Assembly (NCBI GenBank): GCA_017882705.1
Contig: JADGOZ010000107.1
Location: 1-46,318 of the forward strand
Source of the DNA: Candidatus Nanopelagicales bacterium
GTDB taxonomy: Bacteria > Actinomycetota > Actinomycetes > S36-B12 > CAIYMF01
Direction: 5' to 3'
Length of the DNA stretch: 46,318 nt
Shown here: positions 11,899 through 19,096 of the stretch, piece after piece
How the letters are laid out: each line of letters opens with the position of its first letter
Numbering within the stretch: position 1 is the stretch's first letter
The notes under the pieces: model-generated
The model's database searches: none
Seen by the model: only the letters and a program-made list of their open reading frames with translations
Told to the model about the DNA's origin: nothing
Program-made: the position numbers and the translations under genes

Positions 11899-16363
<4,465 letters not shown>

Positions 16364-17203
16364 TCAGGCCTCCGAGAGCTGCTCCTGCTCCATGCCCATC
16401 GAGGACTCGAGCACCGTGAGGGTGCCGTCGCCGAAGGTGGGGTCCTGGCCTTGGGCGGCGAGGGCGGCCGCGCGGGCGGCGCGCTTCTCGGCGGCGAGCC
16501 GCTCGCCCTCGGCGAGCTGCTCGCCGGACAGCAGGTAGGACTCGACGTAGGACACGCCGTGGTGCTTCTCGATGTAGGCCTCGAGCTCCGGGCCGGACTC
16601 CCACGACGTGATGAGGCAGTAGCGCGGCTCGTCGCCCTGGTGCCAGACGGCGTGGTAGAGCCGCTGGGTGTCGACGATGAGCTGCGCGCCGGCCGGCAGC
16701 GGGATGCGCGTCTCCGTGGACGGGTCGTCCTTGTCGGTGCGCAGCACCATGACCGAGTCGGGGTTGTCGGTGAGGTTGAAGAAGCCGCGGACGATCCAGC
16801 CGGTGCCCTCGGGGTTGAGCCGGTTGTTGTCGTCGCGGTGGAAGTTGTAGAGCGTCTCGCCGTAGAGGTTCGGCAGCAGCTCGATGACGCGGCAGCGGCC
16901 GATGTTGGCACCGGGCTCCGTCGCGCGCTCCACGAGCTTCGGCGCCTTGTCGGCGTTGGCCGGCACCCAGACCCCGTCCTTGTCGGTCTTCGGCGGCGTG
17001 TGGTTCCAGAAGCCGTCGCACTCGAGGTCGCCGTAGGCGGAGGCCAGCGGGGCGAAGCGGGTCTCGCCCGAGGACTTCCAGTCGACGAACTCGATGTCCG
17101 TCCACTCCTGCGGGTCGGCCGCCTGGTCGTAGCTGTCCAGCACGACGTAGCCGTTCTCGCGGAAGGCCTCGAGCTTGGTGTAGCCGTTCTCGACGTACGA
17201 CAT
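16364..17203 (-). CDS. Putative Fe(II)/2-oxoglutarate-dependent oxygenase (paralogue A)
   Basis: Unrecognised at family-name level, but it has the marks of a cupin-fold Fe(II)/2OG oxygenase: an HxD pair (H122, D124 in NFHRDDNN) and a distal His (H184 in RLYHAVWHQ) followed ten residues later by R194 (DEPRYCLIT), a suitable 2-oxoglutarate anchor. 279 residues, no signal peptide or membrane helix, so cytoplasmic. The C-terminal 60 residues are a charged helix (EKRAARAAALAAQ) and a tail ending in SEA. Start ATG 17203 is supported by GAGGA 7 bases upstream. It is about two thirds identical by hand alignment, over some 195 residues, to the next gene upstream (17354-18121), so the pair arose by tandem duplication. 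Substrate unknown; it could hydroxylate a free amino acid, a small metabolite or a protein. Confidence 0.75.
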   Translation of the reverse strand: MSYVENGYTKLEAFRENGYVVLDSYDQAADPQEWTDIEFVDWKSSGETRFAPLASAYGDLECDGFWNHTPPKTDKDGVWVPANADKAPKLVERATEPGANIGRCRVIELLPNLYGETLYNFHRDDNNRLNPEGTGWIVRGFFNLTDNPDSVMVLRTDKDDPSTETRIPLPAGAQLIVDTQRLYHAVWHQGDEPRYCLITSWESGPELEAYIEKHHGVSYVESYLLSGEQLAEGERLAAEKRAARAAALAAQGQDPTFGDGTLTVLESSMGMEQEQLSEA

Positions 17204-17263
17204 GGGGTCCTCACTGTCCTGGTGCGTGCCGGGCCGTCCCATCATGCCGCACCCCACCGGAGC

Positions 17264-17279
17264 CTTAGGCGACCCTAAG
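17264..17279. promoter_or_regulatory. Palindrome CTTAGG-N4-CCTAAG upstream of oxygenase A
   Basis: A perfect 6-4-6 inverted repeat in the 5' region of oxygenase A. The TTAGG/CCTAA arms are those of DtxR/IdeR/DmdR iron boxes, but the spacing is shorter than the 19-bp canonical box, so it may be a variant site or belong to another regulator. It lies about 60 bases before the start codon. Confidence 0.45.
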
Positions 17280-17302
17280 CACGGGTGTGTCCCGGCTCAC
17301 GA

Positions 17303-17345
17303 CACAGGTCGACCCCGGGCATCAGCCGCCCGGGGTCGAGCTGTG
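17303..17345 (-). terminator. Strong terminator after the second oxygenase gene
   Basis: TCGACCCCGGGC and GCCCGGGGTCGA form a perfect 12-bp stem around a 7-base loop; after one G-G mismatch five more pairs (CACAG/CTGTG) extend it. It begins 8 bases after the stop of oxygenase B on the minus strand. Its strength suggests the two paralogues are transcribed separately rather than as a simple operon. Confidence 0.85.
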
Positions 17346-17353
17346 AGCTGGGG

Positions 17354-18121
17354 TCAGGCCTCCGACATCACGGTCGTCGGGTCGTAGCCGTAGTACGCCG
17401 TGCGCGCCGCGCGACGCTCCTGGGCGAGCACCTCGCCGGCGACAGCGCTGCCCTGGTCGAGGAACGCGCTCTCGGCGCGGGTCTTGGGCGAGTTCTCCCA
17501 GATCCACTTCTCGAGCTCCGGGCCTGACTCGACGGAGGTGATGAGGCAGTAGCGGGGCTCGTCGCCCTGGTGCCACACGGAGTGCCACATGCGCTCGGAG
17601 TCGACGACGAGCTGGGCCCCGGCCGGCAGCGAGATGCGGGTCTCGGTCGAGGGGTCGTTGATGTCCTCGCGCAGGATCATCACGCTGTCGGGGTTGTGGG
17701 TGAGCTGCATGAACATGCGCAGCACCCAGCCCTCACCCTCGGGGTTGATCCGGTTGTTGTCGTCGAGGTGGCTGTTGTAGAGCGCGTCCGCGTAGGAGTT
17801 CGGCTGCAGCTCGATGATGCGCACGCGGCCGACGTTGCAGCCGACTGCCTTGACCCGCTCGGTCAGCGTCGGTGCGGTCGAGGTCTGCGAATCGATCCAG
17901 ATCCCGTCCTTGTCCGGCTTCGGCGGGTCCTGGTGCCAGAAGCCGTTGCACTCGATCTGGCCGTACGCCGATGCGAGGGGCGCGAAGCGGGTGTCGCCGG
18001 AGGACTTCCAGTCGACGTACTCGAGGTTCTTCCACTCCGCGGGGTCGATCGGCTGCTGGTAGCTGTCGAGGACGACGTAGCCGGTCTCCTCGAGGATCGG
18101 GAGGTGGAGATGACGCGCCAT
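17354..18121 (-). CDS. Putative Fe(II)/2-oxoglutarate-dependent oxygenase (paralogue B)
   Basis: Paralogue of the downstream gene, 255 residues. It keeps the proposed metal triad H118-x-D120 (NSHLDDNN) and H180 (RMWHSVWHQ), and R190 (DEPRYCLIT) for 2-oxoglutarate. Shared stretches include YVDWKSSG, TRFAPLASAYG, NPEGxGW, DPSTETRI and ESGPELE. The C-terminal tail is shorter than in paralogue A but again ends in SEA. The ATG at 18121 has GGAAGG seven bases upstream. Its upstream region holds a good iron-box match (18250-18268). Residues next to the metal site differ (FHRD against SHLD, LYH against MWH), suggesting related but distinct substrates. Function not known. Confidence 0.75.
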   Translation of the reverse strand: MARHLHLPILEETGYVVLDSYQQPIDPAEWKNLEYVDWKSSGDTRFAPLASAYGQIECNGFWHQDPPKPDKDGIWIDSQTSTAPTLTERVKAVGCNVGRVRIIELQPNSYADALYNSHLDDNNRINPEGEGWVLRMFMQLTHNPDSVMILREDINDPSTETRISLPAGAQLVVDSERMWHSVWHQGDEPRYCLITSVESGPELEKWIWENSPKTRAESAFLDQGSAVAGEVLAQERRAARTAYYGYDPTTVMSEA

Positions 18122-18249
18122 GGGGAGACCTTCCTGACGGACGAGCCCCGGTCGAGCAGGGCCGCGAAGCGTGGACGTGGCCCCAGTGTTCCATGGCGAC
18201 CGTCCGCGCAAAGGCGTTGTGCGCGTTGACGTTTCGTTGGATCGATCAC

Positions 18250-18268
18250 TTAGGTGAGCCTGCGCTTA
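18250..18268. promoter_or_regulatory. Candidate iron box (IdeR/DmdR/DtxR-type operator)
   Basis: Read on the minus strand the 19-mer TAAGCGCAGGCTCACCTAA matches the actinobacterial iron-box form TTAGGTTAGGCTCACCTAA at 15 of 19 positions; the right half is perfect. It lies between the rRNA methylase stop and oxygenase B, about 130 bases before the B start codon, where it could make expression respond to iron. Binding is inferred from the match only. Confidence 0.6.
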
Positions 18269-18277
18269 CGCGACGCG

Positions 18278-19096
18278 TCAGCTCCGGCGCTGGGCCCGGG
18301 CGGAGGCGTAGAGGCAGACAGCGGCCGCCGTCGCGAGGTTGAGGCTCTCGGCGCGCCCGTGGATCGGCACCCGCACGACGTCGTCGCACAGGGCGCGCGT
18401 CGCCCCGGGGAGACCCCAGGCCTCGTTGCCGAACACCCACGCGGTCGGCAGGGCGAGCGAGCCGTCGTCGAGGAGGGCGTCGAGGTCGCGCTCCCCCGCG
18501 CCGTCGGCCGCGAGCACCCGCAGGCCGGCCGCGCGCAGCGCCGGCAGCAGGTCCTCGACGCTCGGGCCGGTCACGACGGGGAGGTGGAACAAGGACCCCG
18601 CCGAGGCGCGCACGGCCTTCGGGTTGAGCGGGTCGACGCTCGCCTCGGTGATCACGACGCCGCCGACGCCGGCGGCGTCCGAGCAGCGGATCACCGTGCC
18701 GACGTTGCCGGGGTCGCGCGCGTGCGCGAGCACGGTCACGAGGGTGGGCACGGTCGCGAGCAGGTCGTCGAGGGTGGCGTCGACCCGTGCGCACACGCCG
18801 ACCATGCCCTGGGGCGTCACCGTGCCGGACAGCGAGGCCACGACCTCGCCGGAGGCGCGCAGCACCTCGGCCCCGGCGGCACGGGCTGCGGCCACGATGT
18901 CGGCGTGGCGGTCGGCGGCGTCCGACGTGACGAACAGCTCGAGCAGGACGCCGGGGGTCGCGGCCGCTTCGCGGACCGCCTGCGGGCCCTCGGCGAGAAA
19001 ACGACCGTCCCGGTCGCGGAACGCACGCTTGACCAGCCGACGAGCCGCATTCACCCGCGGAGCACGGGTGGACGTGAGCTCGCTTGTGCTGCTCAT
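18278..19096 (-). CDS. SpoU/TrmH-family RNA 2'-O-methyltransferase
   Basis: SPOUT-fold enzyme that methylates ribose 2'-OH in rRNA (or tRNA) using SAM. The 272-residue protein has an N-terminal substrate-binding domain (FLAEGPQAVREA) and the three C-terminal SpoU motifs: HARDPGNVGTVIRCSDAAG, VFGNEAWGL and PIHGRAESLNLATAAAV, which form the SAM-binding knot. It corresponds in position to tsnR of mycobacteria (after rplT). The exact target base is not predictable. The start ATG 19096 gives the family-like N-terminus although its ribosome-binding site is weak. Confidence 0.92.
   Translation of the reverse strand: MSSTSELTSTRAPRVNAARRLVKRAFRDRDGRFLAEGPQAVREAAATPGVLLELFVTSDAADRHADIVAAARAAGAEVLRASGEVVASLSGTVTPQGMVGVCARVDATLDDLLATVPTLVTVLAHARDPGNVGTVIRCSDAAGVGGVVITEASVDPLNPKAVRASAGSLFHLPVVTGPSVEDLLPALRAAGLRVLAADGAGERDLDALLDDGSLALPTAWVFGNEAWGLPGATRALCDDVVRVPIHGRAESLNLATAAAVCLYASARAQRRS

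Follow-up and report, generated by a model that had tools for sequence, protein, structure and literature searches.

Among iron-regulated enzymes are the cytoplasmic Fe(II)/2-oxoglutarate (2OG) oxygenases PiuC, YbiX and CciO of Proteobacteria, which are controlled by Fur. To our knowledge, iron acquisition in actinobacteria of the aquatic group treated here is poorly known. The consulted part of PMC12004947 reports that cciO is Fur-regulated and that the function of CciT requires cciO, and leaves open the part that the cytoplasmic oxygenase takes in CciT-dependent iron uptake. The iron-box genes of actinobacteria are linked to DtxR/IdeR/DmdR1, and in the consulted part of PMC7174319 the DmdR1 sites, e.g. 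TTAGGTTAGGCTCgCCTAA, lie 25-115 nt before the ATG; that part describes no oxygenase of the type presented below (the OXY family) among the DmdR1 iron-box genes. A different iron-box oxygenase in another phylum would offer a second system in which to test the CciO-type question.

The DNA analysed here (the window) is a stretch of 46,318 nucleotides, contig JADGOZ010000107.1 (C172 in our numbering) of a Candidatus Nanopelagicales bacterium (GCA_017882705.1; 3.56 Mb in 194 contigs). Two intact paralogous open reading frames, P1 and P2, lie on its minus strand where an initial annotation, made from the sequence alone, had placed them (Table 1). The insertion that it described, between an rRNA methylase gene and pheS, is borne out by the Pfam assignments of both flanking genes, and the conserved order infC/rpmI/rplT-SpoU-OXY-pheS-pheT is also found in relatives. 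The ATG start of P1 (17203) agrees with the homologues, a longer GTG start being available at 17257; P2 starts with the ATG at 18121. The two proteins are paralogues, at a slightly lower identity than the two thirds estimated earlier (62% in a local match, 60% over 254 aligned columns). The proposed divergence beside the metal site is real, with HRD in P1 and HLD in P2, but it points only weakly to different substrates, because the middle residue of HxD varies in the other homologues compared as well (R, P, K, L, Q). Downstream of both P1 and P2 lies a hairpin of high stability (-36.4 kcal/mol, z -6.7; -34.4 kcal/mol, z -4.2), so that the claim of a strong terminator for each gene stands for the hairpins, but not for a canonical signal, the terminator scan having found no T-run terminator on the minus strand. 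Together with the upstream boxes discussed below, the hairpins suggest that P1 and P2 probably form separate transcription units, each ending in a GC hairpin. Among the loci compared, six titled Bifidobacterium breve (L036, L045, L049, L052, L074, L077) and one titled Acidobacteria (L014) carry titles that look wrong, since they show the same SpoU-oxygenase block as aquatic actinobacterial metagenome-assembled genomes (MAGs).

Table 1. Features of the oxygenase locus (positions in the window)
Feature	Position	Strand	Remarks
pheS, flanking gene	15209..16276	-	PF01409, PF02912
GC-rich hairpin 3' of P1	16320..16350	-	without T-run
P1, A-type Fe(II)/2OG oxygenase (best reading)	16364..17203	-	279 aa, C-terminal end ...MEQEQLSEA
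C-terminal SEA codons, P1	16367..16375	-	
DtxR/IdeR-like box of P1, CTTAGGGTCGCCTAAG	17264..17279	-	about 75 bp before ATG; 13/19 to DtxR/IdeR consensus
GC-rich hairpin 3' of P2	17308..17340	-	without T-run; probable P2 transcript end
P2, B-type Fe(II)/2OG oxygenase (best reading)	17354..18121	-	255 aa, C-terminal end GYDPTTVMSEA; at PF05118 cut-off
C-terminal SEA codons, P2	17357..17365	-	
DtxR/IdeR-like box of P2, TAAGCGCAGGCTCACCTAAG	18249..18268	-	about 142 bp before ATG; 15/19 to DtxR/IdeR consensus
SpoU-family rRNA 2'-O-methylase, flanking gene	18278..19087	-	PF00588

The best reading of P1 and P2 is that they are non-haem Fe(II)/2OG oxygenases with a predicted fold like that of Asp/Asn and proline hydroxylases, in the neighbourhood of PF05118, and that they would be catalytically active. 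This reading, of which the initial annotation had put forward the oxygenase part, is supported by the predicted fold and by the conserved residues. AlphaFold2 yields a confident double-stranded beta-helix (pLDDT 90.2 / 83.9), for which the best solved fold matches are proline hydroxylases, followed by PHD2/AspH; the best 50 rows of each second look with VIA-align, which cover Foldseek's own candidates, are 2OG-type enzymes as judged from their descriptions. Both proposed metal triads, H122/D124/H184 in P1 and H118/D120/H180 in P2, are present and invariant. Twelve residues (P1 numbering) are identical in 182/182 homologues, namely the triad H122, D124 and H184, the 2OG-binding arginine R194, and R103, R105, N126, N127, R128, W136, R139 and D178. 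The HxDDNNR signature and an N-terminal WKS/FW region are nearly invariant throughout the OXY family.

By sequence, the relationship to described families is distant. The members of PF05118 (Asp_Arg_Hydrox, which includes AspH, LpxO-like enzymes and proline hydroxylases) share the HxD...H...R pattern, the fold and a weak profile match with OXY, but differ from it in the near-invariant HxDDNNR and WKS/FW elements; P2 scores exactly at the gathering cut-off of this family (22.6) and P1 below it (15.9), and 15 of 94 OXY members match at E <=0.01. A profile-profile comparison with two PF05118 proteins was not significant (probability 0.4) and too weak for residue mapping. The OXY profile, built from an alignment (A1) of 94 of the 109 distinct proteins, matched no PDB sequence at E up to 10. 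The remaining matches are weak as well: P1 to EvdO2 in the PDB (E 0.097) and to three PHROGs (best E 0.05), P2 to MADS4 in NCBIfam (E 0.056) and, in the NCBIfam/PHROGs searches, one of the 94 members to ureidoglycolate lyase (E 0.0054). Beyond such weak matches, neither Pfam nor NCBIfam holds a specific family for OXY. A search of phages and plasmids with P1 gave no match at 1e-5, and none of 28 pattern matches of A1 in viral contigs was confirmed; the phage protein with the most similar fold is an uncharacterised Caudovirales protein (TM 0.57), followed by a Mycobacterium phage protein with an Asp/Asn/proline hydroxylase domain. The L-proline cis-4-hydroxylase (4p7w) and the proline 3-hydroxylase (1e5r) resemble OXY in fold alone (about 14% identity, Foldseek TM 0.46), and the C-terminal part that aligns with them is missing from the short forms of OXY.

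The OXY family is highly conserved and has sharp limits: under the E-value thresholds applied, its presence is all-or-none, a genome yielding either a very strong match or nothing. The genomes compared are MAG-based and have gaps, and the gene calls in the neighbourhoods are crude; in this material, OXY occurs in 38/60 relatives of the window's genome, 43/394 genomes of its class, 19/396 of the phylum, 85/121 of family f69 and 64/296 of the class of G752. Such a bounded family, with twelve invariant residues and outside any specific Pfam or NCBIfam family, adds to the interest of the pair. Every member from beyond the window's class is a short form (208-253 aa), as is the single f23 member within it; the short forms mostly stop soon after the core and lack the C-terminal extension. 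Long forms are found in the window's order, in f26 and f39, in loci titled Herbiconiux and Aurantimicrobium and in a few others; their C-terminal extension consists of a helix, a linker of variable length and a conserved end. The earlier observation that both proteins finish in SEA extends to 109/121 long forms as compared to 0/61 others, counted after removal of ORFs cut at the C-terminal end. In a quick tree of 76 of the 182 sequences (thinned at 80% identity), short forms make up one side of a branch with an SH-aLRT of 100, and the A-type (including f39) and B-type sequences form separate clades with values of 99 and 94, so that the tandem pair is an old duplication. In the window's family and in some other loci, the two copies have stayed adjacent.

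Each gene of the pair is preceded by an apparent iron-responsive switch. The first scan used a 19-mer that we take, with two loose positions, to be the DtxR/IdeR consensus. At least 14 matches to it were found in 21/121 upstream regions of long forms and in 0/59 of short forms; the mean best scores were 11.4 and 10.3, respectively, compared to 10.7 in shuffles, and the box of P1 reaches only 13/19, the best of shuffled regions averaging about 10-11. Compared to the iron boxes of DtxR/IdeR/DmdR1-controlled actinobacterial genes, the element matches the right 14 of the 19 bp, whereas its left arm, corresponding to the other 5 bp of the classical box, is degenerate and poorly kept. The 14-mer core and a 13-mer were derived post hoc, from sites already seen. 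With a threshold of at least 12, the 14-mer was found before 33/121 long forms and 0/60 short forms, in 48/5180 random 200-bp windows, some of which may include OXY upstream regions, and in 15/2420 shuffled regions. By groups assigned from locus and kinship, the hits fall on f39 (11/12), f1-like A (9/14), f1-like B (5/11), f3-like A (5/7) and Herbiconiux/L068 (3/3), with 0/58 for other A-type upstream regions (mostly f6, f4 and f7), 0/11 for other B-type regions and 0/5 for Aurantimicrobium-like ones. The 13-mer AGGSTNRCCTAAG has two matches in the window, one before each gene, and none in 100 shuffles.

Scanning of 2,445,502 bases around OXY loci, an OXY-centred and partly self-overlapping sample that represents neither a genome-wide count nor a control, revealed 20 distinct sites with a 14-mer score of at least 13, 19 of them no more than 260 bp upstream of an OXY match. 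A slightly stricter 19-mer gave 17 matches in the OXY-centred DNA, corresponding to 13 places (four in two registers), with 16 of the matches, or 12 of the places, upstream of OXY. The one strong 14-mer site elsewhere, in L172, has the best full-consensus score (16/19) and precedes a ferric-siderophore uptake operon (Peripla_BP_2, two FecCD, an ABC ATPase and SIP, a siderophore-interacting protein) that is separated from a second OXY copy of f39 by about 1.4 kb, including a zinc-dehydrogenase gene. In the OXY-centred DNA, the element is near-exclusive to OXY genes and this one siderophore-uptake operon. It is kept in quite different neighbourhoods, SpoU-pheS and GmrSD-DUF3145, which argues that it has a function of its own. 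On the other hand, the box is missing from many homologues, so that iron control would be a trait of some lineages rather than of the enzyme as such.

Judging by its similarity to the known boxes, the element would probably bind a DtxR/IdeR-type regulator. We consider it improbable that it is instead a core promoter, with TAGGCT as the -10 hexamer, or the site of another regulator. A TANNNT motif does lie inside the core of the element, and within any one group its distance from the start codon is near-constant (62-67 bp in the main f39 copies), but the right arm CCTAA is kept although it falls outside any -10, a scan for sigma-70-type promoters gave no match at the locus, and the sole other strong site in the OXY-centred DNA belongs to siderophore uptake. 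Upstream of the A-type genes of L009, L084 and L056, the box lies within 26-bp palindromes, the flanks of which differ in sequence and stay complementary; these extended palindromes speak for the alternative. The RNA fold of the P1 element is unremarkable (z -0.4), which speaks against it. Among 59 short forms, a search for upstream dyads found none common to more than three.

The initial annotation had proposed a search of related genomes for neighbours that define a shared pathway; this produced cysD in f6 and a monooxygenase gene, c1, in the class of G752, but no common theme for the B copies of f3 and f6, which adjoin Tad/type II secretion, ABC transporter, PPDK and other genes. In f39, a divergent GmrSD-type gene is present in 9/12 loci and DUF3145 on the opposite side in 7; in L164:5097-8054, where the GmrSD_N/GmrSD_C Pfam assignment was made, and in eight more f39 loci this gene diverges from the main oxygenase copy, with a box-like element in the gap.

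The position between rplT-methylase and pheS might imply that OXY hydroxylates a protein, either a ribosomal one or a translation factor. OXY occupies this location in f1, f3, f5, f6 and f26 and adjoins an apparent ABC-F ATPase gene (identified by eye) in f4 and f7 loci, and protein hydroxylases (AspH, PHD2) are among the PF05118 and fold matches. Nevertheless, the link is weakened by the fact that in other lineages the gene sits away from translation genes, and in the window the hairpins and boxes of its own point to a separate unit; a role in translation is therefore less likely, and we regard it as very improbable. With an apparent iron-responsive switch before each gene, a role in iron scarcity is suggested rather than one in translation.

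A link to sulfur metabolism, such as release of sulfate or sulfite from organosulfur compounds or action beside PAPS-dependent sulfation, is likewise less likely, with a very small probability in our estimate. A CysD match follows OXY on the same strand in 11/11 f6 genomes, with gaps of 9-179 bp worked out by hand from the match ends, and in the f6 loci read cysNC comes after cysD; furthermore, in f93, which belongs to another class, OXY lies about 1.4-4 kb from cysH, cysD and cysN. Against this, CysD is absent (1e-10) from 7/38 OXY-bearing relatives, CysD occurs without OXY in six f4 genomes and in other cases the two genes are apart, no Sulfotransfer_1 match (the sulfotransferase family searched) was found in the window's genome, and, in the consulted part of PMC5301498, four streamlined acI strains are without assimilatory sulfate reduction. 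A connection with PAPS synthesis initially seemed strong, since in 42/81 sources compared (e.g. L125:8387-11190) the oxygenase gene and pheS are separated by cysD and a fused cysN-cysC, in an otherwise translation-related block; over 60 genomes it is constant in f6 only. The f93 set of OXY, Fe-alcohol dehydrogenase, cysH, cysD and cysN comes from two genomes of one genus (L214:6172-12240 and L215:6141-11780, with a siroheme synthase gene in L215).

The strongest alternative to the iron-supply reading, though still an unlikely one, is a catabolic hydroxylase, for which iron control in the window's lineage would merely match the iron demand of the enzyme. In a second class, that of G752, the short form travels with the luciferase-like monooxygenase gene c1 in what looks like a catabolic cluster, which counts against the iron reading. 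OXY might there add a hydroxyl group, an alcohol dehydrogenase would make the ketone, the luciferase-like (type II Baeyer-Villiger-like) monooxygenase would insert oxygen, and a hydrolase and an acyl-CoA dehydrogenase would finish the route. With a c1 cut of 65% identity, chosen after seeing the gap to 61%, 28/29 c1 genomes have OXY, far above its overall frequency in this class, although the Fisher p of 2e-20 ignores kinship; in the exception, G1010, c1 lies at a contig end. All 25 pairs of c1 and OXY that share a contig are co-directional and no more than 4 kb apart, 17 of them within 125 bp (one pair, in G964, rests on an OXY fragment), while 22 genomes have less similar c1-like genes, 7 of them with OXY and none with OXY within 20 kb. 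The closest solved relative of c1 is the 3,6-diketocamphane 1,6-monooxygenase; alpha/beta hydrolase, ACAD11-like dehydrogenase, EtfAB-like and Zn-dehydrogenase-like genes are found nearby, and in f93 a non-homologous Fe-alcohol dehydrogenase gene lies just 3' of OXY. However, c1 is present in only 1/60 relatives of the window, a genome (G005) without OXY, no NCBIfam model names c1 above its cut-off, and the cluster, delimited by crude gene calls, is partly a wider conserved gene-order block. G005 itself has five c1-like matches and is possibly a mixed or misplaced assembly. The catabolic and iron-supply readings can both be true in different lineages; since the two settings do not differ in the invariant residues, they probably have the reaction in common, with a different pathway around it.

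For the window, we favour the iron-supply reading and give an even chance to P1 and P2 being small-molecule hydroxylases that serve iron supply under a DtxR/IdeR-type box, in the manner of PiuC/CciO. With such a box before each gene, both are most likely repressed in plentiful iron and made in scarcity. Upon iron shortage, the DtxR/IdeR-type repressor would leave each box, and P1 and P2 would be made, each from its own unit. They might then hydroxylate a small, probably anionic metabolite, as the invariant R103, R105, R128 and R139 suggest, and the product could serve iron acquisition, for instance in making, modifying or breaking down an iron chelator. A more elaborate version is tentative, with appreciably less than an even chance: planktonic and soil actinobacteria would have their own counterpart of PiuC/CciO, a chelator-modifying iron-starvation oxygenase recruited from an old catabolic hydroxylase by gain of the iron box and the C-terminal extension, the conserved SEA end of which would dock to a partner, the old duplication having provided A and B versions for two substrates.

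The nearest functional analogue of P1 and P2 is thus most likely CciO/PiuC/YbiX, and the way of working would be the one proposed for these enzymes. The analogy would extend to an iron-regulated cytoplasmic 2OG/Fe(II) oxygenase, the iron regulation of OXY being suggested by its box, and includes the ferric-siderophore uptake operon near one f39 copy of OXY; beside the window genes, no siderophore gene was recognised in the ORF list and the Pfam scan. As for a TonB receptor partner, we know of none to be expected in actinobacteria. Unlike PiuC and YbiX, which are PKHD-type enzymes and which we take to be represented by PF13640, OXY falls outside that sequence family, PF05118 being the only match of P1 and P2 at E up to 10. 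Finally, the element before OXY is DtxR-like, whereas PiuC, YbiX and CciO are under a Fur-type one.
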